Assembly: GCF_035083965.1 (NCBI RefSeq)
Contig: NC_089723.1
Location: 40,183,193 to 40,247,192 of the forward strand
Length of the DNA stretch: 64,000 bases
Direction: 5' to 3'
Source: Branchiostoma lanceolatum
Lineage: Eukaryota > Chordata > Leptocardii > Amphioxiformes > Branchiostomatidae
A model generated the notes under the pieces. The model ran no database searches. It was not told the origin of the DNA and saw only the letters and a list, made by a program, of their open reading frames with translations. Made by a program: the position numbers and the translations under genes. Positions 1-58,300 of the stretch are shown piece by piece; position 1 is the first letter of the stretch, and every line of letters begins with the position of its first letter.

Positions 1-70
1 GCAGCATGAAGGCTCAGATTTGGAGCAGTGTGGTCTAAGGGTTAGGTTAGGTTTAGGGTTAGGGTTATAG
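1..70 (+). repeat. Truncated copy of MCTP exon 104-280 followed by TTAGGG-like repeats
   Basis: Bases 1-34 closely match exon bases 143-176 (GCAGCATGAAGGC... versus GCAGCATGAAGGC...) with a few substitutions. The copy then breaks off into AAGGGTTAGGTTAGGTTTAGGG-type repeats. The offset is about 142 bp, so this is the right-hand part of an upstream tandem copy of the exon's 5' side. It lies in an intron and is not expected to be coding. Confidence 0.8.
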
Positions 71-103
71 TTGAGTTTATCGTGTCTATGCTGTTCTCTG
101 CAG

Positions 104-3100
104 TACTTAGCGAAGAGAAACCGGCTAGTGGAGACCCAGCGCAGCATGAAGGCCCAGATATGGAGCAGCGTGGTGAGTCTGGTGCTCATCGAGGGGAAGG
201 GGCTGCTGCCCATGGACGACAACGGACTCAGCGACCCCTACTGCAAGTTCAGGCTCGGCAACGAGAAGTACAAGAGCAAGGTAAAATCTTCACTTTCTGC
301 ATTATGTACAACTCAACCTTAATACATCCTGTATCCAATACTGTATATAGGAGGGGGAAATACAGAGCAAGGTAAAGTTTCTCTTCCTGTGTAGAAGCAT
401 TCATTTGTCAGCTTCAATACATCCTGGCAAATTATAGATTCTAATAACACACAATAAACTGTAGAGAGGGAAACATACAAGAGCAAGTATATCCTGTACC
501 CAATAGTGTTGTACTGAGGGGGGCTGTAGAAAGTAACTGTTGACTCTAGATCTGTCTAGTTTAATTGGAAAACACTACTAACAGTAATGTTGCCAGGTTC
601 AAACTGAGCAGACATGTGCTCAGAGCCTGGCCTTTAGTGTTAGATCAGTAAGAGACTGCACAGGCCTGTCAGGCTCTGTGGATTATGGACGCAATCATGA
701 TTGCTGACTCCATTTGTATGCTGGAAATGTCTGCTCCGGCAAATGTAGGTCACCAAACTCTTATCTGACATTGCGCGCCCCGATCAGAAGCCTGCCACTT
801 AAATGCTTCAGAGTGATGAAGGGCAGGATGCAGATCATGCAATCTTACCGTGAGAGTTGCTTGTAACAAGTCTTAGAATGAACTACTAGCTTAAAACAGC
901 TTAAAGAATAACAGTATCTGTTACAGTTAATGTAGTATGTTCTGTTACTGTTAACAGTTACAGTTAATGTAGCATAATTATCACAAGTAACTCATAGACC
1001 ACGTTATTTTTAAGACAGCTTTTGTTTACAGACTTGTGACTGTGGCATGTACATTGTACATTCATTGCACTGTACATGTAGGTTGCAAGTAAGACCCTGA
1101 CTAACTGTGCCATGTACATGTGTGCTGCAGGTTGTAGTAACATGTATGTTGGTTGTACCACAGGTTGTAGTGACATGTATGTTGGTTGTACCACAGGTTG
1201 TAGTGACATGTATGTTGGTTGTGCTGCAGGTTGTAGTGACATGTATGTTGGTTGTGCTGCAGGTTGTAGTGACATGTATGTTGGTTGTGCTGCAGGTTGT
1301 AGTGACATGTATGTTGGTTGTACCACAGGTTGTAGTAACATGTATGTTGGTTGTGCTGCAGGTTGTAGTGACATGTATGTTGGTTGTACCACAGGTTGTA
1401 GTAACATGTATGTTGGTTGTGCTGCAGGTTGTAGTGACATGTATGTTGGTTGTGCTGCAGGTTGTAGTGACATGTATGTTGGTTGTACCACAGGTTGTAG
1501 TAACATGTATGTTGGTTGTGCTGCAGGTTGTAGTAACATGTATGTTGGTTGTACCACAGGTTGTAGTGACATGTATGTTGGTTGTACCACAGGTTGTAGT
1601 AACATGTATGTTGGTTGTGCTGCAGGTTGTAGTGACATGTATGTTGGTTGTACCACAGGTTGTAGTAACATGTATGTTGGTTGTGCTGCAGGTTGTAGTG
1701 ACATGTATGTTGGTTGTACCACAGGTTGTAGTAACATGTATGTTGGTTGTGCTGCAGGTTGTAGTGACATGTATGTTGGTTGTGCTGCAGGTTGTAGTGA
1801 CATGTATGTTGGTTGTACCACAGGTTGTAGTAACATGTATGTTGGTTGTGCTGCAGGTTGTAGTGACATGTATGTTGGTTGTGCTGCAGGTTGTAGTGAC
1901 ATGTATGTTGGTTGTACCACAGGTTGCAGCTAAGACCCTGAACCCGCGCTGGCTGGAGCAGTTCGACCTGCACATGTACGATGACCAGACCAGCGTGCTG
2001 GAGATCTCCGTCTGGGACAAGGACGTCGGCAGCAAGGACGACTTCATGGGCAGGTGAGACCAGCTGGGGGTTTATTCACAAGATAGCTGGGTTGCCCCCT
2101 TTCCTAGAGGGCCCAGCATATACAGGACAGACATGTTACATTCAGTCTGACTGGAGACAAAAAGTGGACGACATACAGTTACTATTAGTGTAGAACAAGT
2201 AAAATCCTAGATTTAAAATCACTGTTCCTTTTTCTCCCTGAATTAAGTTGCCACAAACTTATATCAAAGCCTTTTACAGTACGTCTCTCTCCCGCAATCT
2301 TTCAAGTCACTGCTTGTAGACCTTTCTGCAGACTTGGGCCATTCTCTCTACCCACGCATGCACTGTGGGAGTATTAGGGTTCAGGGCAGCAATAATGTAA
2401 ATGCAGAAATGTTCGCGGTGGGTTTTTGTCCAATACTTTAGCAGTATCTGACTATAGCGCTGCCGCGAACTTAAACCCGCCGCGAACACTCCATTTTCGC
2501 CTTAGTGCAAAATAAAAACCATGCGAACTTGAATGCATTAATTTTACAGTATATTGGGTTTTACAGTTGTCAGCAGGAATCTTTAATGTCACTTTGTCTT
2601 GCACTATATGCAATGAAGCATTCTATGGGGACTTAAATGTATGCAGTAGTTTTATATCAGTCAGTCAGTCAGTCATGTTTATTGCATGTTCATGCCCTTC
2701 CGGGCTAAATGCATTACAAGTAATACAATTGTGCATTGTAATAACAGAAAAAAATGAAGAAAACTATTCTATGTTCTATCTACCTCTAAAGTTTACACGC
2801 TACTTCTCTCTTCTTGAGACATGTGTACACGAATTCACAGAGTTTCTCAATTACCGATTGATTATTCGATGACATCAAGTATATGAACAGTTTGTCATTT
2901 GTTAAGTTTGTATATCTCTGGTCTAGTTGTATTGCGTTAACCAAAGAGATGCGTAAATCTTTGTACAGTGAGCATTCTAGAATAAAATGTACTTCATCTT
3001 CTATAGAGTTCTTATTACAGAGTGCACATAGCCTATCGCTAGGAGGAGTCCGGCTGTATCTACCAGTTTCAATATGCAGTGGATGGTCGCTAATTCTTAG

Positions 3101-6100
3101 CTTAGCCATGGCTCGGCGATGGCTAAAGTTTTTGATGTCAAGATATTTTTCTCTTTCATATGCCCGTTTGAATTTTCTGTATGTTCTTAATTTGTTGCCT
3201 TGGTTCTCTTTTTTGCCAGGGGAGTTTAGTTCTGAGTAAAATGTTTGTATAAAAATGTCTTTCAGTCTTTGTTTTAAAGCAGACTGTGCATATGATGTAT
3301 TGTGATCCTTGTTAATAAGTAGGTAGGCATAGCCCGACTCCTCAAGAATTTTACTAACATCGGATAACCAGCATGGTACTTTACTTCGATGCAATTCTTG
3401 CTGTACTAAATATGCTTCAAACTGAAGGCTACTTGTCGGCACCTCTTTAACCAATTTTTTGTAATATGAATATAATCTAGTGTAAATTGCAATCCATAAC
3501 GGGAACCTACCCAGTTCTGCTCTTGCGGCGAGGTTGCTAGCATTCTTTCTAACACCCAGGATTGATTTACAAAACTTAAGATGTACTTGCTCGATTGGGG
3601 ACTTGTCGTTGAGTCCACTTTTGCCCCACGCCTCCGCACCATAAGTTAGTATTGGGACTACGCATGCATCAAATAGTTTACAATAGACAGATATTGACGG
3701 GTTACTGTCTCCCAGAGTTGTTTTGATACTAAATAAAGCTCTCAGAGCTTTCTTATAAGTAAGGCTGGGGCCGGAGGTCAGGGTGAACACGGGTCCCTCT
3801 GCTGTGATCTTTGTGCACTCGGACAGTAAAAACTGCTCCTACCAGCCCACGCACACCCAAGCACACCCAAGCACACCCACACACACCCATGCACGCCCAC
3901 GCTACTTTGGTTCAAAAGTTTACCAAACCCACGCACGCCCATGCCACTAATTGGTTCAAAAGTAGTTAAAAAGTTCTTGTGAGTTAATTTTCCTCACCGA
4001 AGGCCAGCAAGAAGGCCTCACTGACTGCTATGACTAAGACTGGTCCAATGATTTTACTGTGTATAATTACAAGAGTTACATGCCTTGGACAGTACTGTGT
4101 ATGTTGTGTATGTTGTGTATGATGTATGATGTATAATATGCTGTGTTTGTGTAGAGCACAAGTGGACCTGTCCGAGCTGAAGCGAGAGGGTTAGGGTTAG
4201 AGTTAGGGTACATGTAGTGTGCTGTGTGTGATGATTGTGTAATGTTGTGTGTACAGGTGCCAGGTGGACCTGTCCGAGCTGAAGCGAGAGGGTTAGGGTT
4301 AGAGTTAGGGTACATGTAGTGTGCTGTGTGTGATGATTGTGTAATGTTGTGTGTACAGGTGCCAGGTGGACCTGTCCGAGCTGAAGCGGGAAGAGACGCA
4401 CCACATCGAGAAGGAGCTGGAGGACGGGGCGGGCTCCGTGTCTTTCCTACTCACCATTACAGGTAACTCAGGTGTTCTACAGGTGACTCAGGTGTTCTAC
4501 AGGTAACTCAGGTGTTCTACAGGTAACTCAGGTGTTCTACAGGTAACCCAGGTGCTTTATACTTTAGTCAGGTAACTCAGGTGTAGTCTACCTATAACAT
4601 GGCCAGCTCACACAAAGCCCCCCTTGTTAGACCACGGTCCATTAAGTCTTGTCAGTGTTACAGCCCAACAGCAATATACTCTTGACACTCCCCATCCTGT
4701 TTTCTTTTCGAAAGTTGTTTTTTTCTATTGCCATTTTGACCCTAGTTTTATCTGCTTAGAAGCGCCCTTTGCAGCCAGGCGTGTGATTGGCCCTGGTACA
4801 GCAGGAGGTTAAAGGTTAAAGGTGCCTGGGGTTAAAGGTGCCTGGGGTTAACCATAGCTGTAGTCAGTAATACCACGGTGGACATGCATGTTGCATGGCA
4901 ACCATAAATACGGCACCTATGAGCCGACAGTGCTGCGGGCCAAATTTGATATGTCATCATAAATATTCTTCACTGCACACGATGACCCAGTAACCCCTAA
5001 CCCCAATTAGATTTTTGAAATCAATTTTTTATACTCATACCACTGACTCCTATTCGCATAACCCCAATAACCAGCACAAGTGGTGCAAGTGTTCCAAACA
5101 GTGTCATACTCCCCACAGATTATCTATAGTTAGGATTGCCTGTAAAGGCACACATGTACAGCCTTGAAGACATGCACAAAGTTCTTTGTAGGGCAACCTT
5201 TGGGACCCATAGTTTGATTTTGGTCTCCTGATTTATTCCCAATGTTCCAAGTTAAAATTAAGACTGCTGTATACCATTTAGCGTTTTGCCATTTGAAGAC
5301 CATTTTCTACATTTCTTGTCAGTCATAATTATTACAGTTTTCTCATTCCTAATGAAAAACCTTCCAAGACTTATTATTAATTATAATAACTTCTCTACCA
5401 GCGATAGGGGTTGGGACTGTCACTTGCATAACATTAATCTTGTCATCACACAGTTCTCATAATATTTTGTGTCTGTTTATCTTTTAATCGTATATTTGCA
5501 TGTTTACAAAAATAAAGATTTGATATTTTTGTTTATATTATACATGTAGTAGAATGGGCACTTCACACAAGCATTAATTTAATTTCTTTTCATATTTTAA
5601 GACTAATTGTTTGGCTCTGAGCTGATCAAGGTGACCTGGACAAGTCTCATGTCTGTGAGAAAGCCACTTAACTTATACTGGACTGAAATTATGCAAAATT
5701 CAATGTAAATAAATGTACAGTGAACAATGAAGAGCTTTTTTAAACCTCTTTGACTGACTATTTTCCATTGAAGATTAGTAGATATACGCTACAAATCTCC
5801 CTTAAACTTTATTCAGTCATACATACAATGATCTTCTCAAATGTTATAGGAAATGAAAACATGAAGAAAATAGACTTTTAGCCAAATTTGTTTACATTTT
5901 TTAACCACGTGTTGATTCCATCTTGGTCAGCTCCGAGTCCCAGCTTCACCGCTAGATTATCCCTCCCTGTTTCACATAACGTTTTGTTCTGTTCTCATAA
6001 CATGTGGTTTTTGTTCTGTTCTGTTCTGTGGCTGGTGCATGTTGGTGGCGTGTTGGGTTGTGCTGTTGTAGGGCATGCCAGCCATGCACACTCCCCGCCC

Positions 6101-9100
6101 TGCTGGGGGGCAGACGGCTTCCTCAAACCACAGATAGGTAACCACACAGGGTACCGGGGGGAGCAGTACGCTCTGGGCCTCACCAAGACATTAAGGGGCA
6201 CAACTCAAATATTAGCATATCATCATCATCATCATCATCATCACAGAAACGTCCTGCAGCTGCATCAGTCTTTCATCATAAAGTATAAAGCCTATTATGG
6301 TCCTCTACCGACATTCAAGTCACCATGACCCCTACTTTGCAGGCGACGCCCTTTTGCAAATCAGTAACAATTTGGCTGCAACCTGAGGTGTGCGGGCCAA
6401 CTTGCTCTGCTGAAAGTCAGTTCCTTATAGCTTAAATACGAAAGGAATCCTCGTCCAACATTGGCTTATTTTTATTCCCACTTACTGACTGATTTTCTAA
6501 AGGCCTTTGACTTGAAAGTAATGACCACAATCATGATATGAATTTGGTTGATATCGAGAAAAAAACTGCATACTATATAACCATACCCTGAAATTCAAGT
6601 TGTGCACCTTTTTCTTGGTGAGGCAGAGAATCTATTGGTCACCCCTCGTACATGTGGGGTTCTGATTGTGCGATCACAAAGTGCCGCATCGTTGGTCTTG
6701 AGCCAAAATGCAATAAATGCTTTTAAGCCTAATTTTGCACATTTGCACGGACAATCAAGTATCATTAGTGCAATCTGTTTTTACTTAACTTTTATTTAAT
6801 TTACTTTATATTTTATTTTTTTGCCAACATAGAACCTTAGATCCTGCTTTTATTTTTCATTCAACTGTACAAAAAGACTTCCAAGTCCTGAGTGACAGCT
6901 CCCCCTGTCTGTTTGTGTAGGTAGTGCAGGCAACGAGACGATCACAGACCTGGCCAACTACATGCCTGACCCCAGAGAGAGGCTGGAAGTACAGAGAAGA
7001 TTTGTGAGTAATAGTGTACACCTGCGGGTGGGAATGACACTATATGAGAATTACAAGATAGGATAATCATTGCAAAAACTGGAAATGCTTCTCATAATCA
7101 ATAATATGCAGTACTTTACTTTCTTCTGATATTGAGAGAACCATAATATGATTATATAAATGTACGATCATGTCTCTTACAGCATTATAGATTATTAAAG
7201 TCACATTCCTCCAATTCCACTAAAGTTAACTATAGCTGAAAAGACATGTCTGACTGTCTCCAGAGATCATTACTTCAGTTGTTCGTGTGATTACATGTAT
7301 TCTTGAATGATGATTGGTGTTGACTGTTGAAACCTTCGTTGTTTCTGCAATCAGAACATCATTTACTCCATGTTTGACCATTAGTCGACATACATATATA
7401 TACTGTACCTGTTACAATGCTGTTTTACACTAACCCCCCTCGTGACTGTGCTGTTTTACACTAACCCCCCTGTACCTGTTACTGTGCTGTTTAACACTAA
7501 CCCCCCTCGTGACTGTGCTGTTTAACACTAACCCCCCTCGTGACTGTGCTGTTTAACACTAACCCCCCTCGTGACTGTGCTGTTTTACACTAACCCCCCT
7601 CGTGACTGTGCTGTTTTACACTAACCCCCCTCGTGACTGTGCTGTTTTACACTAACCCCCTCGTGTTCACAGTCTTTACTCAGGTCCTTAAGGAACTTGA
7701 ATGACGTAGGATTGCTGCAGGTCAAAGGTGAGTATGTGATGTTCTTTACTGATTCCTTCACTCTTTCCTGCAGTTTCACGTTGGGTAATTGTGCATAACT
7801 AGGTTTCTCCTACTTACCGGTAGTAGTAGTTTGTTTGCCAACCAGTTTTAAGCAATATTTGAGAAAACTTATGAAAATGCCCAGCACTGAAATTCTAAGC
7901 AATCACGAACTGACTTCTAACAATATAGCTTTTACCCACCATAGTGGAATATTTGCCATAATTATTATGAAAATGCCACTTTGTCATTCATTCTAAATCA
8001 AAGTTGAACTGAAATTGCCAACACAGAAAATTGAACTCATCCAAATTTTCAACTGATCATCTCCAGTCCTTGGCAAGGATTTACAGTTCAGCTTTGATTC
8101 AGAATGACTCCTACCAACACAGATAAACCTTCACGTGACTCTATTTCACCTCCCAGTGATAAAGGCGACAGGTTTGCTGGCGGCGGACTTCGGGGGGAAG
8201 AGCGACCCGTTCTGTGTGCTGGAGCTGACGAACGCCCGGCTACAGACTCAAACCATCTACAAGACTCTCAACCCCGAGTGGGGGAAGGTCTTCACATTGT
8301 AAGTATCGGGGGAGATTCCAAACTTAAGGCAGTAAGACTTGATCTAGAGGGGCATTGATGCACTTATCAATACCATAATATGAAAGTATGTTTTGGTATG
8401 AAAGTATGAAAGTGTTTTTTGTCTAAGTTGAAGGAAACTTTAATCGCTTAACGCTACCTCGAACTTGGTTAACTTGGTAATTTCACAAACTGATAGCCTG
8501 GAATATTGCACATTGTAGTGTCAACACTCACAGGACAACTGCTAAGCAATGGTATTGAAAAGCATTTATACACCTGGATAAACCATTGTTGCTTCACACA
8601 CAGTCTGCTATCAAGAGGCCCTTCCCCTGCCTTAGTTGAGCTTGTTTTTGTTTATATATTTGTTTGTTTTGATGTTTTTGTGTAGCCAAGTTAAAGACAT
8701 CCACTCCATCCTGGAGGTCAGTTGTTACGATGAGGACAGGAACAAGTCAGCAGAGTTTCTGGGCAAGGTGGCCATCCCGCTACTCAGAGTAAGCACTATT
8801 CTTTACTCTGTGTTTAGTAGGAACAGATTTCCCCACGCACTGACGAAAGACAGCAGATGCTGTCATAAACATCTGAGTACTAGTAACCATTTTAAAAGCT
8901 CGAGTAAATTTTGTGTTTAATAGGAACGAGTATTATCATGTAAATTTGATATAAAGCTATATTGCTGGTAGTATGATATTTTCCTGCCCTTCCAGATTAA
9001 GAACGGGGAGAGGAAAGCGTTTTTCCTGAAGGACAAGAAGCTGAGGAGAAGAACGAAGGGCTCCATCGTACTGGAGATGGAAGTCATCTACAACTCCGTA

Positions 9101-12100
9101 AGGAACTTTCACTTTTCTCTCATCTACAACTCCGTAAGGAACTTTCACTTTTCTCTCATCTACAACTCCGTAAGGAAACTTTCACTTTTCTCTCATCTAC
9201 AACTCCGTAAGGAACTTTCACTTAATAATATAGAACTTTCTCTTTTCTCTCATCTACAACTCCGTAAGGAACTTTCACTTATAGAACTTTCACTCAAACC
9301 GTCATCTACAACTCTGTAAGGAACTTTCACTCAAACTGCATGGTCTCTTTCTATTTTGGAGTTGATGATTAACACACATTATAATGCCTGTAAGCTGCAT
9401 GTGGCATATTGACTTTCATTGTGACACAAAGTAGAGCTCCATCTCAAGTAGAGCTGCCAGTAAAGACCATCAGTGAGTCCTCCTCCAGTGTGAAGGATTA
9501 CATGACTTTGTCTAGTACAGCATCAGCTGTGTGGTAACCTCTAACCTTTAACCCCTACAGATCAAGGCCAGCTGGAGGACGTTCAACCCTAAGGAGGTGA
9601 AATATCTACAGATGGAGCAGAAGTTCAAGAGACAGGTGAGTCTGACGTCGCCCGGCTTTGTTTGAGTAACTCAGATGTTATTTAGCCTGAATGGGAATAC
9701 TTCAAGTGATGCTGTTATCGTTTACGCTTCATGGTGAACATTGATTGTTAGGAACCCACTGTGGACCTACTGTGACCACTCCTACTCAATGCCCCTATTT
9801 TAAAGTGGAGGAGTCCAATGAACCCACTCAAGTCCAAAGAGTTATAGAGAGCAGATTAAAGTTTATTTGCTCCGAAGATCTTTGTCGTGTCTGGTCTCGG
9901 GCTTTGAGTATTGGGAGACTTAACCTGAAGGGGTTCACAAGAAGTACATTTGAATACTTTGAAACATTGCCAGTCGTACTGTTTGCCCTGCCTAGATCCT
10001 GGTCAGTTTTAATACACTGACTATGTTGATTACCCGACTGTTTCTGCCCTGCGCAGGTCCTGGTGAGTTTTGATACACTGACTATGTCTTAATGAGATGT
10101 TGATTATCCGACTGTTTCTGCCCTGCGCAGGTCCTGGTCAGGAACCTGCAGAGAGTGAGCCGGCTGGTCATGGCCGTCGTCAACACCGGCAGGTTCGTCA
10201 AGAGCTGCTTCGAGTGGGAGTCAAAAACACGCAGCATCACCGCCTTTATAGTAAGTCTGATCCTCACAACACTGATAGTGTGTTATGTTGCAGATGTATG
10301 TGCTGATGGTGTGTTTTGTTATTGTTGATGGTGTGAATTGTTGCATATGTACATGCTGATGGTGTTTATTTTGAACAGATGTGCATGCGGATGGTGTTTT
10401 TGTGCAGATATTTGTGCTGATGGTGTTGTTGCATATGTATGTGCTGATGGTATGTTCTGTTCTGCAGGTGGTGTTTGTGCTGATGGTGTGTCATGTTGTA
10501 GATGTACATGCTGATGGTGTGTTCTGTTGCAGATGTACGTGCTGATGGTGTGGAACTTCGAGCTGTACATGTTGCCGCTGGTTCTGCTCAGCATCTTCTT
10601 TAAGTACTACATCGTTCGGTCGGTGATGGAGGGGAGGACCGACCAGCAGGAGGTAAGGACCGACGAGGTGTGTGAGCTGATTTCTGCTTTTGTGCCACTA
10701 AACAAGGCTGTAAGGTTGACACTCAATGTCTGGGTGAAACCCATTACATGGTGAATGTAATTATAACCATTCAGTTAAAAGAATAAATTGGGTGAGAGTT
10801 TCGGGGTGAAACGATGCGTTTTTGAGTCAGTGAGTTTACAGTATATAAAGGACTTACTAAACCTCCACATTTGACCTCCAAAACTGGTATCCAAACCTAT
10901 AGCGGCAGCTAGTAGGTTTGGGTACCAGGTGAGAAATCTGGAGGTCTGGAGGTCATTTATTAGTAGTTTACAAAATATAGATAATGTGGTAATATGTGAA
11001 ACACATTATATGCATATTGTAAGATGTGAAGCACATTATATGCATATTATAATATGTGAAACACATTATATGCATATTGTAAGATGTATAATCTGCCTGA
11101 TTGCTTGAGTCCAGTTTAAAGCTTTGTTTGTTCCGTTCTGCAGGAGGCTGAGGAGGAGGAGCAGGACGAAGATGAGGATGATGAGGAGAGGGGAAAGGTG
11201 AGACGAGTATGTCTGACTTGTAGTTGATAACAATGTCATACACCGCTATCTCTCACCTTAGCCACATTCAGTTTAAACCAATCACATCAATTAGTCCAAT
11301 GCTTAAAGAAATGGCCCCCTACGGCCTTGCGTTGAGAGAGATCTTTAAAAAAAAAAAGTTATATCTTGTGTATCTATATAGCTGGTATAACCACCATTTG
11401 ACGCAGGACATCAGCTTCACAATCTTAACATAAGCCTGCAGGGATTCCGGTTCAGAATTGTGATTTAATGCTTTATCCTGTCTTCTGCTTGAATATTAGA
11501 ATTTTTGTCTGCAGGAGAAGAGTAAGAGTTTAAAGGAGAAGCTACAAGCCATCCGTCTGTCAGACTGTGCAGAACGGGCTGTGTGTTCACCTGTTGTCTC
11601 ACCTGTTGCCTCACCTGTTGCCTCACCTGTTGTTTCACCTGTTGTCTCACCTGTTGTCTCACCTGTTGCCTCACCTGTTGTCTCACCTGTTGTCTCACCT
11701 GTTGTCTGAACTGTTGTCTGAACTGTTGCCTCACCTGTTGTCTCACCTGTTGTCTCACCTGTTGTCTCACCCGTTGTCTCACCTGTTGCCTCACCCGTTG
11801 TCTCACCTGTTGTCTCACCTGTGTTCTCACCTGTGTTCTCACCTGTTGTCTCACCTGTTGTCTCACCTGTTGTCTGAACTGTTGTCTGAACTGTTGCCTC
11901 ACCTGTTGTCTCACCCGTTGTCTCACCTGTTGTCTCACCCGTTGTCTCACCTGTTGTCTCACCTGTGTTCTCACCTGTGTTCTCACCTGTTGTCTCACCT
12001 GTTGTCTCACCTGTTGTCTGCAGGAGAAGAGTAAGAGTTTTAAGGAGAAGCTGCAGGCCATCCAGGACGTGTGTCAGACTGTGCAGAACGGGCTGGATGA

Positions 12101-14053
12101 GGTGGCCAGTTTGGGCGAGAGTGTCAAAAAGTAAGAAATACCATTTACTTGTCCTTGTCCTTACTTACACACGATCATGTCCTTTTTATTGAAGGCATAC
12201 AGTTTTTTGTGGTGTCAAGTCCTCCAAATGTACTTAATAGCAAGTGGAATGTTTTTTGTCACAGGATGTCTTCCAAAAGGTACTTGAAGTAAAAGGAAGT
12301 TTCTTGTTTCCGTGTCTGCAGTGCTTTTAACTGGACGGTTCCGTTCCTGTCGTGGCTGGCTGTCATCACGCTGGCCATCGCCACCGTCGTGCTCTACTTC
12401 ATCCCCCTCAGATACCTGGTCCTGGTTTGGGGTACGTATCAGATACCTGGTCCTGGTTTGGGGTACGTATCAGATACCTGGTCCTGGTTTGGGGTACGTA
12501 TCAGATATCTGGTCCTGGTTTGGGGTACGTATCAGATACCTGGTCCTGGTTTGGGGTACGTATCAGATATCTGGTCCTGGTTTGGGGTACGTATCAGATA
12601 CCTGGTCCTGGTTTGGGGTACGTATCAGGTACCTGGTCCTGGTTTGGGGTACGTATCAGATACCTGGTCCTGGTTTGGGGTACGTATCAGATACCTGGTC
12701 CTGGTTTGGGGTACGTATCAGATACCTGGTCCTGGTTTGGGGTACGTATCAGATACCTGGTCCTGGTTTGGGGTACGTATCAGGTACCTGGTCCTGGTTT
12801 GGGGTACGTATCAGATACCTGGTGCTGGTTTGGGGTACGTCAAACATCCAGCTTACTGGATCAAGCTTAGTCTCAGCATCATATGTCAAGTATTTATGGT
12901 TGGACTTCCACTGAGCCTGATGGGCTGGGACCAATGATAGAGTTGTAGTGCCCTGTCTCCAGAGTCACTTCCCTTCATTGAGTTTTTCTTGTGACAATTT
13001 TTGTCATTTGGCTGTAGGCATACCTGAGCATCTCCCGTTTTTTAACCCAATCATCACCAACCTTACAGATCTGCTCTGCAGTTTGGGTGAAAAGATAAGG
13101 TTTCAGATGTTTTGATTTTTCCCCAAATTTTAACATTATGCCCAATAAGTATTCCTGCCCTAATGTCGCTAACATGATTACTGAAGACCACGTTGATTGC
13201 TGCTAACCCTAACCTTGTGCCCTCTGACCCTTACCTTGTGCCCCCTGACCCTTACCTTGTGCCCTCTGACCCTTACCTTGTGCCTTCCGACCCTTAACTT
13301 GTGCCATCTGACCCTAATATTGTGCCCTCTGACCCTTACCTTGTGCCCTCTGACCCTTACCTCGTGCCTTCTGACCCTTAACTTGTGCACTCTGACCCTA
13401 ATATTGTGCCCTCTGACCCTTACATTGTGCCCTTTGACCCATACCCTTTGCCCTCTAACCCTTACCTTGTGCTTCCTACAGGTATCAACAAGTTTACAAA
13501 GAAGCTGCGGAACCCTAACGCCATTCCCAACAACGAACTCCTAGACTTCCTGTCCAGGGTGCCGTCAGACGAAGAACTGGTCAGTTATTAAAAAAAAAAA
13601 TAATATTGATCTTTCCAGTAAAATGATTAACAAAATCAGTCAACCGTCTACCGAAAAATGATATGAGATTAAGAACAATGATGCAATGAAATGATAACAT
13701 CAACAACTATGACAATGATAACAGAAATTCAGACGCAACAAACTTTAGACATGATACAAAATGTTAGTAACCAGATATCACAGGCATTAAGGGCCCAATT
13801 TTCCCTGATCTAGTTTATGATTGAATTTGCTTTTGATGCGTTGACGTTGTTTCCATGTAGTAAATCCTCCTTTCAGTTTGATAGCCACCACATTTGAAAC
13901 AGTTGCAGAGTTGGAGGGATGCCAACAATGCCGGCTTTCTTGATGCCAACAAAAGTGATGTTTGTGTCTGATTTCTGCCCCCAGATTGAGTATAAGGAGC
14001 TGAAGTCTGAAGAAACCCAACAGCTCTCCCCCAAGAAAAAGAAGACCAGCTGA
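104..14053 (+). CDS. MCTP: MCTP: multiple C2 and transmembrane domain protein (5'-partial)
   Basis: Sixteen exons join with consistent phases: 104-280, 1923-2053, 4359-4462, 6921-7003, 7673-7727, 8157-8298, 8686-8788, 8996-9097, 9561-9635, 10131-10250, 10533-10652, 11144-11197, 12024-12130, 12322-12431, 13482-13579, 13985-14053. They encode 549 residues plus TGA; the first C2 domain and N-terminus lie off the left edge. Domain order: a C2 domain (exons 1-3; loops [10 protein letters not shown] and [10 protein letters not shown] carry Ca2+-binding Asp), a second C2 domain (exons 5-8; [12 protein letters not shown] and [14 protein letters not shown]), a linker, then two membrane segments (around [14 protein letters not shown] and [19 protein letters not shown]) flanking an acidic stretch (exon 12). 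The tail has the family motif INKFTKKLR and ends in KKKKTS. Known MCTPs are ER/vesicle membrane proteins that bind Ca2+ through C2 domains and act in membrane traffic and synaptic homeostasis. MCTP1 and MCTP2 are not distinguished. Many of its splice junctions lie in tandem repeats, described separately. Confidence 0.95.
281..1129 (+). other. MCTP intron, unique part
   Basis: Intron sequence after the donor at 281 (AAG|gtaaaa). A short imperfect echo of the exon end (gagagggaaacatacaagagcaag, near 463-486) follows the donor. I see no gene or mobile element here. Confidence 0.6.
1130..1922 (+). repeat. 33 bp minisatellite, 24 copies, spanning the acceptor of MCTP exon 1923-2053
   Basis: Unit GTTGTAGTGACATGTATGTT followed by GGTTGTACCACAG or GGTTGTGCTGCAG. 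Every unit ends in an acceptor-like CAG and begins like the real exon (GTTGCAGCTAAG). Two variants (ccacag/gctgcag and gtgac/gtaac) are intermixed. Because 33 is a multiple of 3 the array is open in several frames. In the MCTP frame each unit would add the 11 residues [11 protein letters not shown] (or ...VLQ). The real acceptor is taken as the last copy (ends 1922) because the conserved sequence AKTLNPRW follows. Confidence 0.95.
2657..3785 (-). mobile_element. 5'-truncated non-LTR retrotransposon (LINE) 3' end
   Basis: A minus-strand open frame of about 330 residues runs from about 3790 to 2786. It resembles the C-terminal half of LINE ORF2: a post-reverse-transcriptase segment ([20 protein letters not shown]) and a Cys/His cluster ([21 protein letters not shown]). 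Downstream on the minus strand come AATAAA and a (TGAC)n tail at about 2657-2680, typical of a LINE 3' end. The right boundary near 3760-3790 is a 5' truncation, and the polymerase core is absent. It sits antisense in an MCTP intron. Clade (CR1/L2/I-like) not assigned. Confidence 0.8.
3840..3930 (+). repeat. CACACCCA-rich simple repeat
   Basis: Short degenerate array of (aag)cacaccca and cacgccca units just right of the LINE, within the same MCTP intron. Confidence 0.7.
4135..4358 (+). repeat. 102 bp repeat: two decoy copies of the acceptor and 5' part of MCTP exon 4359-4462
   Basis: Copies with exon-like starts near 4155, at 4257 and at the real exon 4359 are spaced exactly 102 bp (GTGGACC at 4162, 4264, 4366). 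Each has the acceptor region, then CAGGTGGACCTGTCCGAGCT and GAAGCG. The decoys break off after AAGCGAGA into GGGTTAGGGTTAGAGTTAGGG. The real copy continues as GGGAAGAGACGCACC. The decoys meet a stop in the TTAGGG segment. Confidence 0.9.
4459..4562 (+). repeat. 20 bp repeat, 5 copies, spanning the donor of MCTP exon 4359-4462
   Basis: Unit ACAGgtaactcaggtgttct. The first copy contains the real exon end and donor (ACCATTACAG|gtaact, gt at 4463). Four more exact or near-exact units plus a partial one follow, each a donor-like site. Confidence 0.92.
4563..6920 (+). other. MCTP intron without recognisable genes
   Basis: About 2.3 kb of AT-rich intron. It contains a few short repeats (ggttaaaggtgcctgg near 4808) and a (CAT)n microsatellite at 6221-6242. 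Open frames here are short and unlike any protein I recognise. Confidence 0.6.
6221..6242 (+). repeat. (CAT)n microsatellite
   Basis: Seven to eight uninterrupted cat triplets within the MCTP intron. Confidence 0.95.
7418..7668 (+). repeat. About 31 bp minisatellite just upstream of MCTP exon 7673-7727
   Basis: Unit tgctgttttacactaaccccc + ctcgtgactg, about eight copies. The array runs to within a few bases of the acceptor (ctcgtgttcacag|TCTTTACTC), so it supplies the pyrimidine-rich tract but does not include exon sequence. Confidence 0.9.
9084..9335 (+). repeat. Donor-spanning tandem repeat of MCTP exon 8996-9097 (6 copies)
   Basis: Unit catctacaactccgtaagga followed by actttcacttttctct. 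The first copy holds the real exon end (ATCTACAACTCC|gtaagg). Five further copies repeat 14 exon bases plus the donor, with small indels in the tail. Confidence 0.93.
9975..10137 (+). repeat. Acceptor-spanning repeat of MCTP exon 10131-10250 (3 copies)
   Basis: The stretch gactgtttctgccctgcgca|GGTCCTGGT appears near 9980 (degenerate, cctagATCCTGG), near 10040 (exact) and at the real acceptor (exon from 10131). Copies are about 60-74 bp apart, separated by gatacactgactatgt. Confidence 0.88.
10283..10540 (+). repeat. Acceptor-spanning degenerate repeat of MCTP exon 10533-10652 (about 8 copies)
   Basis: Copies of ttgcagATGTACGTGCTGAT and GGTGT, with substitutions, tile the last 250 bp of the intron up to the true acceptor at 10532. 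The coding copy is identified because it continues into VWNFELYML. Confidence 0.85.
11515..11582 (+). pseudogene. Broken duplicate of the 5' part of MCTP exon 12024-12130
   Basis: An acceptor-like ctgcag is followed by GAGAAGAGTAAGAGTTTAAA and then a close copy of the real exon start. The copy lacks AGGAC after GCCATCC, so its frame is broken, and it ends at AACGGGCTG, where the 12 bp array begins. It lies 509 bp upstream of the real exon, with the array between the two copies. Confidence 0.88.
11583..12020 (+). repeat. 12 bp minisatellite (cacctgttgtct) in MCTP intron
   Basis: About 36 copies of cacctgttgtct/cacctgttgcct, with two longer duplicated blocks containing gaactgttgtct and cacctgtgttct. 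Its last unit forms the polypyrimidine tract of the true acceptor (ttgtctgcag at 12014-12023). Confidence 0.93.
12411..12841 (+). repeat. 31 bp minisatellite, about 14 copies, spanning the donor of MCTP exon 12322-12431
   Basis: Unit AGATACCTGGTCCTGGTTTG + GGgtacgtatc contains the last 22 exon bases (encoding RYLVLVWG) and the donor gtacgt. Fourteen near-identical donors follow one another. The period is not a multiple of 3, so all three frames cycle and stay open; the resulting long open frames are artefacts. Confidence 0.95.
13203..13475 (+). repeat. 21 bp minisatellite upstream of MCTP exon 13482-13579
   Basis: Unit ccttaccttgtgccctctga + c, about 13 copies, starting at a ctaaccctaacc motif and ending a few bases before the acceptor (gcttcctacag). 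It supplies the polypyrimidine tract only. Confidence 0.9.
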
Positions 14054-16270
14054 TGAGTCTGGAACGTCCGTTTAGAGCTTCTCTGCCAACTTGCACTGCT
14101 GCACGGTTACCTGCACTGTCACCACGGTTACCTGCACTGTCACCACGGTTACCTGCACGGTTACCAGGGTTACCTGCATGGTTATCTGCACAGTTACCAT
14201 GGTTTCCAATGCAGACGGTCACCATGAACTGCTGTACGGTTACCGTGGTTGCCATGCACTCGGTACGGTTACCACGGTTACAGCAGTTACCACAGTAACA
14301 GCAGTTACCTTGGTTACCATGCCCTGCTGCATGGTTACCGTGGTTACCACAGCCTTGCTACACAGTGTATACACACACACAACATTCAATTTGGTTCCGC
14401 GAAGCTGCACACATGTTAGCTTGAAGTATAGTATATTGACCATATGAAGGTTGATAAAGCCCAAAGCAGTGTAATCTTTTAGAGGAATTTTAGTTCTATT
14501 ACACTACTGCCTCTTAATTTGCATGACTCACTAGCATGAGCGTGTTTGTAGTCAAACTGCCTTCCAGACAAATCTTCACCCATAGCAATGCTGCTGCAGC
14601 GCGTGTGTCGGTGTGTTTGCCTCTAATGCAGAAGAATCTCTTATATAAGTGCAGCGGTACAGGGCGGATAGGACTGTTGTACTCAGCTGTATGACAGACA
14701 ATAGATGAAGTTTGTGTACAGGGCACTTCTCAGATTTGTAAACAGTCTCAAATTGATTATTTTGACCAGACAGGATTTTACAGCATTACTATAAAAAAGC
14801 AATATGCCGCGCCTACCATGCAAGTATCACGTAACCGCAGACTGTAGACTGCAATATTATATTATCACCCAGAATAGAAGGGCGGGCTTGTTGTTACTGT
14901 TTGTCTTACCTGTAGATCTTATTTATTACTTTGTCCCATTAAAGCTGGGTATTTGTGTGTTGGAAGATGAGAAGGCTGTAGAGAAGGTTTAAGAATTTCT
15001 CTCTCCTCCAAAAGCCATCAGACTCTCTCTGAGCATATCACAGTTTAAAGCATAAGCTTGTTTTTAAGATTTTGTATTTCCAGGTTATAGATTTATTGCA
15101 TTTGTACAATGTAACATTTGATTTGATTCTGTGTTACTAATGATATAAGGTCTGTATGATTCCCAAATAGCTTCTACCTCTTCCAAATGCTTATTAGAAT
15201 TAAAGAGTATTATTTTACACCTTATTTCTTTATGGTTGAATAGAAATGTGTTATTTTATCTGCAATGCATTAGTATGTATTAAAACATGCCAGATAGGTA
15301 AAACTGTAGTGTGCAATATAGAACTGTTTATTGTAACTTATTCATATGTAGTGTATAGAGTTGTTTTATTACAGACAGAGTTAGCGGCTGGCTGCTCCTG
15401 TTATTTTCTAGTTTTCATGCAGCTGAAGCAGATGTGAAGATTTGTTTATTTTTGTTCCTCCACCCTGTGAATAACATCGCCGCATCTCTACGAATTTCTT
15501 CCAAAGACTGAAAAGTTTCTCCGGCTCCTTGCGACTGTAAATACCTCCCGTGAGACCAGATGGAAGTTTCCCTGCCATCTTTTGTCCCTGTAAATAAACT
15601 GTCTGGACGACAAATCTGTACATTTGCGCTGCATGAAGACTGCGCCGAGGAGCCGTTTGTATCGTTACCTGCCGGACCTCCATGCCTGTGGAAACAGCCA
15701 CGCAAAACTACTGCTGGTTCCGCAGAACGGTGTGTGTTGAAGTTTTAGGGGGCGAGTTTTACATTTTCAGGTGGGCTGCCGGTCTGTTTCAACCAATAGG
15801 AATGTTTGATATCTAGTTGTAGAGATTTCCATGAACTCGATGATCATTGCAAAGTGTGGTGTTGCCAGAAGAACAGCCTTAACCCGTCGGGAGGTGCTTT
15901 CTGGACAGCTCTACACGGAAAGTTGAGACCGACATTTTTATCGCTGTGAGGACTTATCGAGAGTCAAATCCATGGAAAGTTGCTCTTGACGAACGTTGTT
16001 TTGAAATGCGGGACAGAATTTTAACCGAATGTCATTAAGCACCAGTTTGGAGTAGAGTTTTAGGTTAAGCAGGTTTCTATAGCTACATGTGGAATTATGA
16101 AGACTGCCCTTGCAGCCCTCCTGGGTTATCAAAACATTTATGAGAAGGGAGTTTTATGACGGCTGTGTGTTTGTACTTGTACTGTCTGACCTTTGCATAT
16201 GCAATACATGTGATGAGAGAATGCCTTTCTTATGCAAGAAATGAAATAAATTCTATCACAGTTTCCAGTA
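14054..16270 (+). other. Probable MCTP 3' untranslated region
   Basis: Sequence after the MCTP stop. It begins with a degenerate ggttaccatg/ggttacctgcactgtcacca repeat (about 14090-14350) and continues as AT-rich sequence. A poly(A) signal AATAAA at 16245-16250 is the most likely transcript end; an earlier aataaa lies near 15591. No other gene is apparent. Confidence 0.55.
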
Positions 16271-16502
16271 ACTTTGCTTGTGTGGTTTATGGTTCATGAT
16301 TTCCGACTTGTCCAGAATTCCGAATGTAAGAATACTATATATGAGTCCAGTAAGTGGCCCATTTTGCAGCAGATATGGCTTGCAAAAAACACCAAAATTT
16401 GCACAAACATATATCATTGTGATGCCCCCGCCAAACACAGTACATGGTACGATAGTCAATATAGAAGAAATATCTGTTGTATTTGTAAATATATCAAAAA
16501 CC

Positions 16503-18190: not shown

Positions 18191-18229
18191 GTGCTAAACA
18201 CAATCTAAGGGATGCAACACTCCCTAATC

Positions 18230-20538: not shown

Positions 20539-31416
<10,878 letters not shown>

Positions 31417-39118: not shown

Positions 39119-39174
39119 CACACAAGATTTGGCAACAATACTTTTCTCCCTTCTCAGTTTCCTGCTTACTTATA

Positions 39175-41216: not shown

Positions 41217-49126
<7,910 letters not shown>

Positions 49127-49752
49127 CTTGGATTTTCGAGCAAGTTCACAGCCCGCCAGACGCATGCGCCGTGAACTCTAACCGGGCGGGAGCGCAGTCT
49201 CGCGGAATCTCGCCCTACTTTGCACTGCAGGTGTGCGAGAAACGGCGAGAGTCTCGGGGAATCTCGCCCTACTTTGTGCAGCAGGTGTGCGAGAAACGGC
49301 GAGACCGCTTTGTGCACCTGTTGCTCCCGTTGCCATGGCGCTGTCCGCAGGTGTGAAGCCCCCTGATACAAGTGGACACCAGGGTATGTTGACCTGGAGC
49401 GAAGTGCACTGCATCAAACAATCGCGATTTCATATTTTATGCATAACCTAAATATGCAGAAAGCTATGAAACATTGAAAACCCACATGTGTCGTTTCTAG
49501 TGCGGGCTTGTGATTTATCAGAGAGCTTGAATTACAGCGGGACTCTTTCCTAAGCGGATGAGGTAATTGTTTACTCAGTCGGCCCTCCGGTCCTTTTGTT
49601 GTTGCTACTGCAGCGTTGCCTAGGCGTCCGTAGCAACCGCTCAGTATATGTTAGGGGTGACAACACCAACCAGCTGACTAGTGCATAGACCGTCGCCCTG
49701 CGAGCACGTCGCAACATTTCTAGCAAGTTTTTACCGGACATCATCCTAAACC
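49127..49752. promoter_or_regulatory. Bidirectional promoter region of COPS2 (-) and ODF3 (+)
   Basis: The two ATGs are 626 bp apart, head to head. The COPS2 side has an NRF1-like palindrome CGCATGCGC (49161-49169) and two 54 bp tandem units from 49198 and 49252, each beginning TCTCG(C/G)GGAATCTCGCC and containing GTGTGCGAGAAACGGCGAGA. These resemble the TCTCGCGAGA promoter motif. Toward ODF3 lie X-box-like sequences: GTTGCCATGGCGCT at 49329-49342 (2 mismatches to GTTGCCATGGCAAC) and GTTGCC...AGCAAC at 49615-49637. RFX control would suit a sperm/cilia gene. This is inference. Confidence 0.6.
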
Positions 49753-54046: not shown

Positions 54047-55343
54047 GTACAAACTGAAGTGCAAATTGGGACTGAATTTGCATAAGTAATGAGGAAAATC
54101 TACACCTCCATTCTAGGCATATGATGGGAGCTCACACCTGTTAGTCTCAAATCTAGGACAAGAATTCCCCAGGTCCCAAGAGCTGGTGGTCAAACCACAA
54201 AGGGGTTAACACTACCAAACCTGTATAGTCTTGTTTCTATTATGTGGATACCCTCTGGCACATAAAACAAAACAACCAGTGGCAACAACAAATAACTTGG
54301 GTAAATAAAACACATCATATATAAAAACAAATTTCATGGAGATTTGGGGTCTTCGGACTCTTGTTCTGAAATGTATTGCTTCAACTTTGTTCTGAAAAAA
54401 TCACACAAAAAACTCAGAATAGCCAACAAGGAGAAAAAGGAATTCAGTCCACACAAGTGGATCACCACATATTAATATAAACACCGACAGTTTACTGAAA
54501 CGAGCCCAGAACTCATTTCGCCTAATTCATCTAAGAAACATACCAAAGACCATGCTGTCGTAAGGCAAGAACAGTTGCAGGGGAATTTGCTGAAGGCTTT
54601 TCCAAAATGCGGTTAAAATGTTTGACAAATTGCAATATTGTAGGTGACAGAAAAAAAATTGCGCCGTCTTCAGGAGATACCATTACAGTTGATTAACAGC
54701 CAACAAGCAGCCATTTTATTTTTCAAACTTTATTCAACAATATACTCTAGTAAATACAATAGAAAAGAGTTGCTATAACTAAGGGAAGTGTTTGTAAGAG
54801 GTCCTACTGGAAACTGACAAAGGCTGAAAATGTAGGCCCCCACAATTACTATTGTCTTCCCGTATCCTTACAATATTTGAACAACTATTACATCTATTAC
54901 TATTGGTCCATACATACATGTACTTCTACAGCTGTTAAAGTTTAAGAGAGGACAGTGGTGTTTAGTTATGACGTATCAACACTGCAATATTGCTATCTTA
55001 CTGTAGTGATTGTAATATTTACATGTTGCAAACTTGCAGTGATATTACAGCAATGAATGCATTTAGCTCAGAACAGTATAAAATGGGGAAGTTCATAACT
55101 TTTGGTGACAGAAGATTTAGAGTTACGAGTATAGAGCAAAGAAAAACATGGGCACATAGACAGAATAGAGACAACCTTTGAAGGCAACATCTGTTCAACT
55201 AAATAGTCCATAATGTTGTTTGGTTGTTGTTGCAGAGCAGCTGCCGTGATGTCATCAGTGATGTCATGAGTTGTCCCGCTGTAGCACCTGAGTTGTGGTT
55301 TGTACATGGTCCAAGCAGATGTGCGGGGACGCCTGTGCTGTCA
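54047..55343 (-). other. Intergenic sequence and probable CKS1 3' untranslated region
   Basis: A minus-strand AATAAA (plus tttatt at 54729-54734) lies 0.6 kb beyond the CKS1 stop and probably ends its transcript. The 54.05-54.7 kb part has no recognised feature. Confidence 0.45.
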
Positions 55344-58300
55344 CTAGTGGTCCGGCTGGGTTGTGATGGGTCGCCGAAACAGCAAGATGTGTGGTTCTGG
55401 ACGGAACAACAAAAATGAATGTCACTACAGTTGCAGTTTTAACTGTCACTACAGTTGTAGCAGTAATTCAATACTACATGTATGCAGCCTCATGAAAGTC
55501 AGCAGGGCTCGAAATTCATTTTTGGAAATAGGTGCACTGGTGCACCCAACCTAAAAAATTGGATGCACAAAAAATAATTTGGGTGCACCACACAAAATAA
55601 TACCAAAACATTAAAGCTTGACGCTACAGCCTCTCTTATAAGAACTTCAATCTGTGATTCTACCCAGATTTCAAATTTCAACCAAGCAATACATCAAATA
55701 AAGTACAAAAGATTACATTGCTTTTACTGATACTTACATTTCAAGAATATTCTGTATGCTAGTGTACAAAAATGTCTAGGTGCACTAGTGCACCCACAGT
55801 CAAAAATTAGGTGCACAGCTCCAATTTTGGGTGCACACAGGTGCACATGCACCCACTATTTCGAGCCCTCAGCGGGTCATCATATATTTTATTCAGAGCA
55901 CAACAAAGTCAAAAAAGCCGGCCCGTCACCCCTAGAAATGTCAACCACAAATGTGATCAAACACTACAAACTTCATTTTGACCTTTATGCTGGATGAATG
56001 TTGTAGCAGCTGCTAGAGTGGCATAGTGACGGCGATCAGAGTCTAATTCCAAGAAACACTCGCTTTCTGGTACTACAGTGTACCTTTCAGAGAGCCAAGT
56101 GTCCATTGTTAGGTGTTATTGCAGTTGCTAACTTTTGATTTCATGTTATATGTTTGAATCTTTTAGCTTGAGTGTATTATCTAATCAGTTTGTGTTGAGA
56201 CTGGATCTTATTCGTTGAAAGAAAATCAGACGTTGCATGGACCAATGCTTTTATTGAAAGAATCACATCATTTTTAATAATTCCATGTTCAAGATTGTTT
56301 CGTTGGGGCTGTCTACAGACAGTATTTTTGCAATGAGTAAACAAAACTAAAATGCAAAATTAATGGAAAATAAAACAGGATGATTGCCAGAAACACGACT
56401 TCATACATTTGTACATTGTCAAATTGAAACTGGGGACCAAAGTTTTGTAATTCGAACTGTAGAAACTAAACAGTACAATGTATTTCAACAACAGTTCTCT
56501 TGTACTAGTAGGTGCTTTAAAGTTTTTTTACCTAACCAAAGTAACCATGCAATTTGCTACCCCGTGGACGCTATTTATATATTTAAGGTATATTAAGAAG
56601 CCTTTAATGTATTTATTTCTATTCCGCAAGGAAGATGACGACTTCGCGGAAAAAACAAATTTGCTAACCCTTTTTTTTTAATGTTTTGAATGAGCATAAC
56701 CTGGCACGTGCTTCATGTAGTGGCACCAGCCCTGGCTCTGTTTAATGGGACATTACCTGGCTCGTGCTTCATGTAGTGGCACCAGCCCTGGCTTTGTTTA
56801 ATGGGACATTACCTGGCTCGTGCTTCATGTAGTGGCACCAGCCCTGGCTCTGTTTAACGGGACATTACCTGGCTCATGCTTCATGTAGTGGCACCAGCCC
56901 TGGCTCTGTTTAATGGGACATTACCTGGCTCGTGCTTCATGTAGTGGCACCAGCCCTGGCTCTGTTTAATGGGACATTACCTGGCTCGTGCTTCATGTAG
57001 TGGCACCAGCCCTGGCTCTGTTTAACGGGACATTACCTGGCTCGTGCTTCATGTAGTGGCACCAGCCCTGGCTCTGTTTAATGGGACATTACCTGGCTCG
57101 TGCTTCATGTAGTGGCACCAGCCCTGGCTCTGTTTAATGGGACATTACCTGGCTCGTGCTTCATGTAGTGGCACCAGCCCTGGCTCTGTTTAACGGGACA
57201 TTACCTGGCTCGTGCTTCATGTAGTGGCACCAGCCCTGGCTCTGTTTAATGGGACATTACCTGGCTCATGCTTCATGTAGTGGCACCAGCCCTGGCTTTG
57301 TTTAATGGGACATTACCTGGCTCGTGCTTCATGTAGTGGCACCAGCCCTGGCTCTGTTTAATGGGACATTACCTGGCTCGTGCTTCATGTAGTGGCACCA
57401 GCCCTGGCTCTGTTGCACACCGATGCCTCTCCACTCCGACTCAGACATCAGGTGGCTCTTGGGGACCAGTTTGGCAAGCTCCTTCGGCAACATCACATGT
57501 CTGGAGAAAAAAGAAGAAATTATGTACAAATGTATTGCCTGCCTTAGTGCCTAGGCCAGGGACTGGCCCCTAGCTACTCTGAAGGGAGTTTTATTTACGA
57601 TTCGGGGCCGATCTGACTTGTTCCCAGAAAGGAGCTATACTCCAAACATCATTTTGCATGCAATTTAATATTTCCGGTGGATAAGGGTGTCTTGCCATTG
57701 ACCGATACACGAAGTTGATATTTTCTGTGGAAACGTTATTTTTGGTGAAGGCTCTAAGATTGAAGTACAAGGCTGTGCGGGATCACAACAGACTCAGCGG
57801 GAGAGATTATGTAAATTGATGTATTTACCAATTCGAGCACGGGTGCAAGTTTGCATCGTGAATGCAAACCGTTTTGAATCGGAAAGGAATCAAACCGTTA
57901 TGATTTTTGCATCATGAACTTAGGCATCACATTCCAAACTTTCAGGAGTTCATTTGTCTGTTTTATGGTCCAAGCTTCACAAGCTTAAGCATTTGTGGCA
58001 ATAGGAAGTATCCAAAGTGCCCGGAGTCTTGTATACTGAAGAATTTTTCTTTGTATCGGACTGATCAGAAATTCTGGGTTGGCTAGACAAAAAAAAAAAA
58101 GATGACAAAGTAGAGAGCCTGACAAAAACGCCTAAAAACACGTCAAAAACCAGCCAAAACCCATGCTCTGCTTGGAGAGTACTTTGAACTAGCCGGGAAC
58201 TCAAATCCGTACTTATAAGCTGTGGCGACTAACGAAGGGAGTTTTTGCTTGATATTACATATAGAAAGTATATGTAATATGATGTAATATCAAGCAAAAA

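Follow-up and report, generated by a model that had tools for sequence, protein, structure and literature searches.

The window considered here, 64,000 nt of the amphioxus Branchiostoma lanceolatum (contig NC_089723.1) containing no N, holds splice junctions of the genes MCTP, CSK, COPS2 and CKS1 that are tandemly duplicated into their own introns; the arrays are thus mirages, the name given to such structures at amphioxus Adh3. The phenomenon itself is already known. As far as our literature search shows, what can be added to it is a positional test made per event, the description of arrays on the acceptor side of introns, an intron built of arrays, and telomere-like sequence at some of the joins between copies. 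The bias of the arrays towards exon edges and the telomere-like joins, together with precedents in mammals and Daphnia, make the fill-in of a staggered break the likeliest first step. We therefore suggest, with a probability of about 0.4, that mirages form by repair of staggered breaks at splice junctions, sometimes with insertion of telomeric sequence, followed by amplification. All counts come from this one sequence, and the copy numbers of arrays depend on its assembly.

Genes and copied junctions

Five genes, the fifth being ODF3, were rebuilt with our own spliced aligner, guided by human protein sequences. The models have 43 introns (median length 476), of which 43/43 are GT-AG, and 86 exon edges. 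Some boundaries were edited by hand. In MCTP the aligner first took a GT within an array (4471) as the donor of exon 3, which was replaced by 4462; the acceptor of exon 4 was moved, with loss of a 5-bp exon at 4858, and the acceptors of exons 12 and 13 were placed at 11144 and 12024. A 16-bp CSK exon at 25357 was dropped at the exon ending at 26583. The acceptors of ODF3 were hand-corrected, and this gene is placed by the human protein alone. Residues 2–443 of the COPS2 model align with the solved COP9 signalosome subunit 2, residues 1–438 of the CSK model with the solved carboxyl-terminal Src kinase and residues 1–77 of the CKS1 model with the solved CKSHS1, in each case nearly the full model; that of MCTP contains two C2 stretches and matches PRT_C at its C-terminus. 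Protein homology is continuous over the mirage junctions in CSK, COPS2 and CKS1 and, with the human guide protein, in MCTP too.

Copies of each junction, represented by 8 exonic and 12 intronic nt, were sought up to 2000 nt into its own intron, with a cut-off of 16/20. Such copies are present at 16/86 edges, seven donors and nine acceptors, whereas about 0.03 chance hits would be expected over all edges (our own binomial estimate, with equal base use). The donors are at 4462, 9097 and 12431 in MCTP, 21677, 22233 and 30682 in CSK and 57372 in CKS1. The acceptors are at 1922, 4358, 10130, 10532 and 12023 in MCTP, 20715 and 22432 in CSK (the latter at just 16/20), and 41361 and 45056 in COPS2. 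The copying of junctions is therefore real. An earlier note on this DNA, made from its letters, had listed 18 such junctions, and 15 of these are clear. The other three hold in part. The window opens inside the copy of MCTP exon 1 (listed at 1), so that the copied junction itself lies outside it; the copies listed at 1130 carry 4 exonic nt by ungapped extension or 7 by blastn; and at 44225 the exon start and intron flank are indeed duplicated but the acceptor is degenerate and falls below 16/20. The note was right that ODF3 has no junction copies (0/4 edges in the same test), and its suggestion of kinship with amphioxus mirages is borne out by the published descriptions, which are of the same class (PMC3087553, PMC3902484). 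A possible decayed copy, missing from that list, lies 91 nt downstream of the MCTP exon 1 donor at 280 (280–371, 15/20).

A transposon or introner family was considered as the source and rejected: no sequence is common to many sites, each array is made from its own junction, and periods range from 20 to 203. The many independent junction-built arrays of varied unit size are thus not one mobile element, as the note had held.

Position of the duplications

The list used for the positional tests comprises 26 intronic duplications with a unit of at least 20 nt, compiled by hand from the rows of a tandem-repeat finder (TRF), the junction test and a BLAST of introns against themselves. Outside it stand nine intronic TRF loci with units below 20, the TRF row at 22442 (represented by the CSK exon 9 duplication instead), a dispersed 37-bp repeat in CKS1 intron 1, the MCTP exon 1 copy and the 15/20 copy at 280. 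Two entries carry a choice of ours: the original unit in MCTP intron 12 was set by hand at 100 nt, and MCTP intron 1 was scored as including the edge with 7 exonic nt, though ungapped extension gives 4. Since growth cannot bring an edge into an array begun elsewhere, random placement of the unit is the apt null. Against it, 17/26 duplications include at least 5 exonic nt where 4.9 are expected (P=7e-9), and 24/26 include an edge or lie no more than 30 nt from one, with 8.5 expected (P=2e-12). Edge-including duplications remain in excess for units of at most 60 nt (11/19 vs 2.5 expected, P=8e-7) and after removal of COPS2 exon 9 (16/25, P=1e-8).

The check proposed in the earlier note, which asks how many arrays extend at least 5 bp across an exon edge, is stricter; it was run on TRF arrays of period at least 20, the null being whole arrays moved within their own introns. 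The count is 10/23, as against 3.2 expected (P=2e-4), and 19/23 lie no more than 30 nt from an edge, against 6.3 expected (P=3e-9). Among the 21 repeat components of the intron self-BLAST, the only ones distant from an edge are in MCTP intron 11 (56 nt), in CSK intron 3 (more than 200 nt) and the dispersed repeat of CKS1 intron 1.

The note's statement that the process starts at exon ends agrees with this per-array bias, but it does not cover the duplications that are free of exon. Seven of the nine listed (7418, 13206, 21793, 24751, 43357, 44109, 46054) stop 7–28 nt before an acceptor, and 0/9 begin just inside a donor. At donors the active zone would thus be the exon edge, and at acceptors it would take in the polypyrimidine region as well. 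For seven edge duplications the copy number is only two or three (4162, 9978, 11505, 22175, 22403, 44049, 45015); because such events are already on edges, the bias precedes large amplification.

Telomere-like tracts at the joins

The earlier reading was incomplete in that it offered no generating process and did not mention the telomere-like tracts at three joins. Our scan for these was prompted by GGGTTAGGGTTAG, spotted at a join in the printed arrays, and covered the whole window. Four independent TTAGGG-like tracts score at least 10 (45–67; 4187–4209, copied at 4289; 44240–44253; and 13203–13214), all of them internal to the window. Three lie at the end of copied exon sequence, and the fourth, 13203–13214, marks the 5' edge of the acceptor-side array preceding MCTP exon 15. 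At MCTP exon 1 the decoy, whose left part is cut by the window start, matches the exon at 31/34 positions and is followed by TAAGGGTTAGGTTAGGTTTAGGGTTAGGGTTA; the scored tract is 11 nt from the copied exon end, or 1–2 nt if it is taken from its imperfect start at 36. The distance is 3 nt at MCTP exon 3, where a tract stands at the join in both copies (4187–4209 and 4289–4311), and 0 nt at COPS2 exon 9, where the tract is imperfect to 44229, the terminal AG of the copy is in register with it, and GGTTAGGG follows. The intron flank is duplicated in COPS2 and the unit is exactly repeated at MCTP exon 3, so that the tract sits between copies; the intron-flank copy beyond the COPS2 tract is diverged, with a score of 30 that was equalled in 0/1000 shuffles. 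In the three tracts at joins the G-strand points, 5' to 3', outward from the end of the copied exon, which is the orientation expected of addition to an exposed 3' end. The fourth tract reads CTAACCCTAACC. By eye, the 21-bp unit of the array that it borders (13206–13472) includes ACCCTTACC, with one mismatch to the telomeric C-strand, and this array may therefore itself descend from a telomeric insert.

The join at MCTP exon 3 was found by script; those at MCTP exon 1 and COPS2 exon 9, where the junction is off the window or degenerate, were added by hand. With all joins included, the presence of 3/4 tracts at joins has P=5e-5 (tolerance 5 nt, the first tract being measured from its imperfect start) or P=5e-4 (12 nt). 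Nine other hexamers of the same composition gave 11 control tracts, of which 0/11 lie within 12 nt of a join and one lies at 13 nt. Telomere-like 9-mers at 4995 and 13511 are within chance (the window has 33 telomeric 9-mers, most of them inside the four tracts). An excess of telomeric 8-mers (64 vs 11.7 expected; 4–33 for the nine other hexamers) was set aside because the 8-mers overlap within tracts and 11/64 are repeats of a single 8-mer carried by the 60-bp array of COPS2.

In mammals, telomeric inserts are reported at sites of double-strand break repair, some of them with a target duplication that has been ascribed to staggered breaks and with AG or GG in register (PMC2246262, PMC7215372). 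Our literature search, in which subscription journals were thinly covered and longer result lists viewed in part, recognised no paper joining mirages to telomeric repeats.

Decoy splice sites

At the 16 copied edges there are 131 non-functional copies of the junction (72 donor, 59 acceptor), which we call decoys. The dinucleotide is kept in 126/131 of them (GT in 70/72, AG in 56/59), and 112/131 (67/72 donor, 45/59 acceptor) score above the functional site or within 0.5 bit of it, by matrices made from the 43 introns. Use of a decoy would shift the frame or add a stop in 96/131 cases. The functional site according to protein homology is in each case the copy touching the exon, namely the first donor or the last acceptor. 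With the dinucleotide intact in nearly all decoys and most of them frame-breaking, the exon-proximal site would presumably have to prevail, in keeping with exon definition. Such a choice would amount to pairing the nearest sites across the exon, the opposite of nearest pairing across the intron.

The reading frame would stay open for 35 decoys, and 23 of these belong to MCTP intron 1. Each of the 23 acceptors counted in that array (1121–1929) would lengthen the protein by a multiple of 11 residues, with no stop and no change of frame, and their use could therefore add a variable repeat to MCTP.

In another selection of decoys, the dinucleotides show 6/254 mismatches where 21.8 are expected from the other columns (an earlier version, 1/226, omitted degenerate arrays). 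This is suggestive, and no more, of selective upkeep of decoy dinucleotides, as the copies share ancestry.

Origin of the arrays

In the scheme that we favour, the initiating event would be a staggered double-strand break, with one strand nicked in the exon and the other in the intron, some 20–200 nt apart. Filling-in and joining of the overhangs would leave one tandem copy. In a minority of events, telomerase or a telomeric template might extend the exposed 3' end with TTAGGG before the ends are joined, and later unequal exchange or slippage would amplify the unit. The zone prone to breakage would comprise splice junctions and the acceptor-proximal part of the intron; nucleosome edges or co-transcriptional R-loops may be guessed at as the cause. 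Tolerance of the arrays would follow from exon definition, in which sites are paired across the exon, allowing exon-proximal ones to beat up to 29 decoys that are nearly all as strong.

A number of points weigh against this scheme. Some units reach about 200 nt, which is long for a staggered break. No telomere-like tract accompanies 15/18 of the junction duplications (the 16 passing edges plus MCTP exon 1 and COPS2 exon 9), including all seven donors; with script-found joins alone, 1/4 tracts is at a join; and the telomeric association is post hoc and concerns three loci in one window. Counted per base, there is no enrichment at all: 15/86 edges have a copy within 250 nt, compared with 1174/6000 random intronic points (313/6000 for points outside exons and edge mirages). 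This test is flat because 7909 of the 33,154 intronic bp are TRF array. Each array expands from a single unit whose position alone is random, which is why we prefer the per-array null to the coverage null. Finally, strong pseudo-donors away from exons are often found in arrays, with a copy on the matching side for 9/45 and on the other side for 8/45 (in four arrays, pseudo-donors within any one array being counted repeatedly), and sequence similarity could therefore contribute.

The alternative that survives best is one of survivorship, in which duplications arise anywhere, those anchored at a junction are kept and re-homogenised, and interior arrays decay past recognition. Functional junction copies are under selection, and just 2/26 of the listed duplications are further than 30 nt from an edge; both facts would fit. 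We nevertheless consider it unlikely; the bias is also found among two- and three-copy duplications, where homogenisation has little substrate, and interior arrays might undergo it too.

Less likely again is slippage driven by the sequence itself, whereby the splice consensus (CAGGT, pyrimidine runs) provides short direct repeats that seed slippage or microhomology joining in the absence of breaks at junctions. The copied pseudo-donors speak for this, as do internal near-repeats in the 20-bp unit at 4458. The pseudo-acceptors speak against it, with a copy on the matching side for 0/15 (1/15 on the other side). Most copies, moreover, extend 9–42 nt into the exon, past the consensus, and the telomeric tracts are left unexplained.

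It is improbable that extra donors and acceptors are kept because redundancy improves splicing or buffers mutation. The retention of GT or AG in the decoys, and the deficit of mismatches, would be expected on these grounds, but the copies within an array are not independent (MCTP intron 1 alone supplies 9.4 of the 21.8 expected mismatches), and the frame-breaking majority of decoys would break the protein if used. Chance coverage of some edges by long arrays, which occupy about a quarter of intron length, is consistent with the flat coverage test and yet very improbable, being already disfavoured by both the unit null (17/26 vs 4.9) and the whole-array null (10/23 vs 3.2).

Amphioxus genomes are highly heterozygous, and divergent haplotypes might have been merged in assembly. 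This we rate as the least probable of all, for although a globin mirage was aberrantly assembled in a draft genome (PMC3087553), the units here are of 20–60 bp, in up to 30 copies and different at each junction, and the mirages in the published accounts were rebuilt from traces or resequenced (PMC3087553, PMC3902484).

Comparison with known systems

Mirages were named at amphioxus Adh3 and have been reported for the globins BflGb6 and BflGb9, troponin C and PGBD5 (PMC3087553, PMC3902484). They are described as minisatellite-like copies of exon boundaries, at 5' and 3' ends, with units of 10–160 bp, many of which contain AG/GT. Here, too, the unit spans the exon–intron boundary (16/86 edges) and splice signals are found in the units (126/131 decoys). 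Regular splicing is reported from the Adh3 data and from globin RT-PCR (reverse transcription PCR), and the 2010 globin paper called the mechanism of mirage formation unclear (PMC3087553). The window extends these accounts by mirages at no fewer than 16 junctions of four adjacent genes, together with a test of their position, by telomere-like tracts at three joins, by exon-free acceptor-side arrays and by one intron that consists wholly of two mirages.

Mammalian interstitial telomeric sequences resemble the tracts described here in being short internal (TTAGGG)n stretches, sometimes with a target duplication and with nucleotides in register. In the human set reported in PMC7215372, none are in exons and 31% are in introns, which fits random insertion, whereas 4/4 tracts in the window are at junction or acceptor-side arrays. 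New introns of Daphnia likewise show direct repeats, in introns and at exon ends, ascribed to staggered breaks (PMC4202315), but the exon-end repeats described there are of 4–12 bp and mark new introns; those in the window have units of 20–200 bp, in many cases amplified. Intron gain by tandem duplication of AG/GT (PMC3087553) also involves copying of a junction within a gene, though here introns grow and no new intron is shown. The nearest case is CSK intron 10, which is made of mirage copies.

The per-event bias and the tracts at some joins point to a specific and testable process, namely break repair at splice junctions. A wider reading is that amphioxus junctions are recurrent sites of germ-line staggered breaks, that repair, at times aided by telomerase, copies the junction, and that mirages are the fossils of these breaks and a main source of intron growth; this we regard as doubtful. 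Should break repair at junctions hold genome-wide, amphioxus would offer a natural record of gene breaks and a route of intron growth. It would also provide a stress test of exon definition, in which as many as 29 donor copies, most of them equal in strength to the real site, are apparently ignored.

Individual features and other arrays

The features are collected in Table 1.

Table 1. Gene models and junction-associated duplications in the window (x/20, match to the junction window; copies and decoys as counted in the text)
Feature	Positions	Strand	Details
MCTP	104–14056	+	16 exons
CSK		-	11 exons
COPS2		-	15 exons
ODF3		+	3 exons
CKS1		-	3 exons
MCTP exon 1 decoy and telomere-like sequence	1–67	+	decoy 1–34 = exon positions 141–174; real exon from 104
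33-bp array to MCTP exon 2 acceptor	1121–1929	+	24 copies; exon from 1923; 18/20
MCTP exon 3 acceptor mirage, 102-bp unit	4162–4388	+	exon from 4359; 30 exonic nt; 20/20
MCTP exon 3 donor mirage, 20-bp unit	4458–4554	+	last exon base 4462; 5 exonic nt; 17/20
MCTP intron 4 array, 31-bp unit	7418–7665	+	stops 7 nt before acceptor (exon 7673); exon-free
MCTP exon 8 donor mirage, 36-bp unit	9084–9331	+	last exon base 9097; 14 exonic nt; 20/20
MCTP exon 10 acceptor mirage, ~74-bp unit	9978–10141	+	exon from 10131; 9–11 exonic nt; 20/20
MCTP exon 11 acceptor mirage, 31-bp unit	10272–10552	+	exon from 10533; ~19 exonic nt; 18/20
MCTP exon 13 acceptor and first 40–72 exonic nt copied	11505–12095	+	exon from 12024; 19/20
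MCTP exon 14 donor mirage, 31-bp unit	12408–12840	+	last exon base 12431; 14 copies; 20/20
MCTP exon 15 acceptor-side array, 21-bp unit	13203–13472	+	stops 9 nt before acceptor (exon 13482)
CSK exon 11 acceptor mirage, 48-bp unit	20686–21417	-	first exon base 20715; 26–30 exonic nt; 15 decoys; 20/20
CSK exon 10 donor mirage, 39-bp unit	21417–21693	-	donor 21677; 16 exonic nt; 20/20
CSK exon 9 donor mirage, 26-bp unit	22175–22245	-	donor 22233; 12 exonic nt; 19/20
CSK exon 9 acceptor duplication, 120-bp unit	22403–22603	-	first exon base 22432; 30 exonic nt; 16/20
CSK donor mirage, exon ending 30683, 40-bp unit	29465–30720	-	donor 30682; 21–38 exonic nt; 20/20
COPS2 last-exon acceptor mirage, 60-bp unit	41337–42003	-	first exon base 41361; 25 exonic nt; 10 decoys; 20/20
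COPS2 exon 9 duplication, intron flank and exon positions 2–49	44049–44301	-	first exon base 44097
COPS2 exon 7 acceptor duplication, ~151-bp unit	45015–45382	-	first exon base 45056; 42 exonic nt; 18/20
CKS1 exon 2 donor mirage, 56-bp unit	56695–57414	-	donor 57372; 12 decoys; 20/20

The donor array at CSK 30682 has about 30 copies, with GT kept in 29/29 decoys. The CKS1 donor has about 13 copies of a unit of 42 exonic and 14 intronic nt (GT in 12/12 decoys), and the MCTP exon 14 donor repeats 24 exonic and 7 intronic nt (GT in 13/13). There are about 11 copies of the COPS2 acceptor at 41361. In the array at MCTP exon 2, AG is kept in 23/23 decoys; at MCTP exon 11, where the copies are degenerate, it is kept in 3/5. 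The acceptor copies at MCTP exon 13 are separated by a 12-bp polypyrimidine array (11587–12019).

In CSK intron 10 (20686–21693) the donor array adjoins the acceptor array at 21417 and unique sequence is gone. By eye, CCC is common to both arrays at this join, an indication that the acceptor array is the older of the two.

Some further arrays deserve mention. Two that are proximal to acceptors (46054–46160 and 24751–24943) have units with strong donor-like motifs on the sense strand, with no annotated exon there. A 54-bp direct duplication (49196–49304) immediately precedes the first coding exon of COPS2 and may belong to the promoter or the 5' untranslated region. Of the arrays without a link to an annotated exon edge, the largest is a 39-bp repeat in 43 copies (16519–18168) between MCTP and CSK, whose 3' ends converge there; the minus strand of this array is open for 539 codons.

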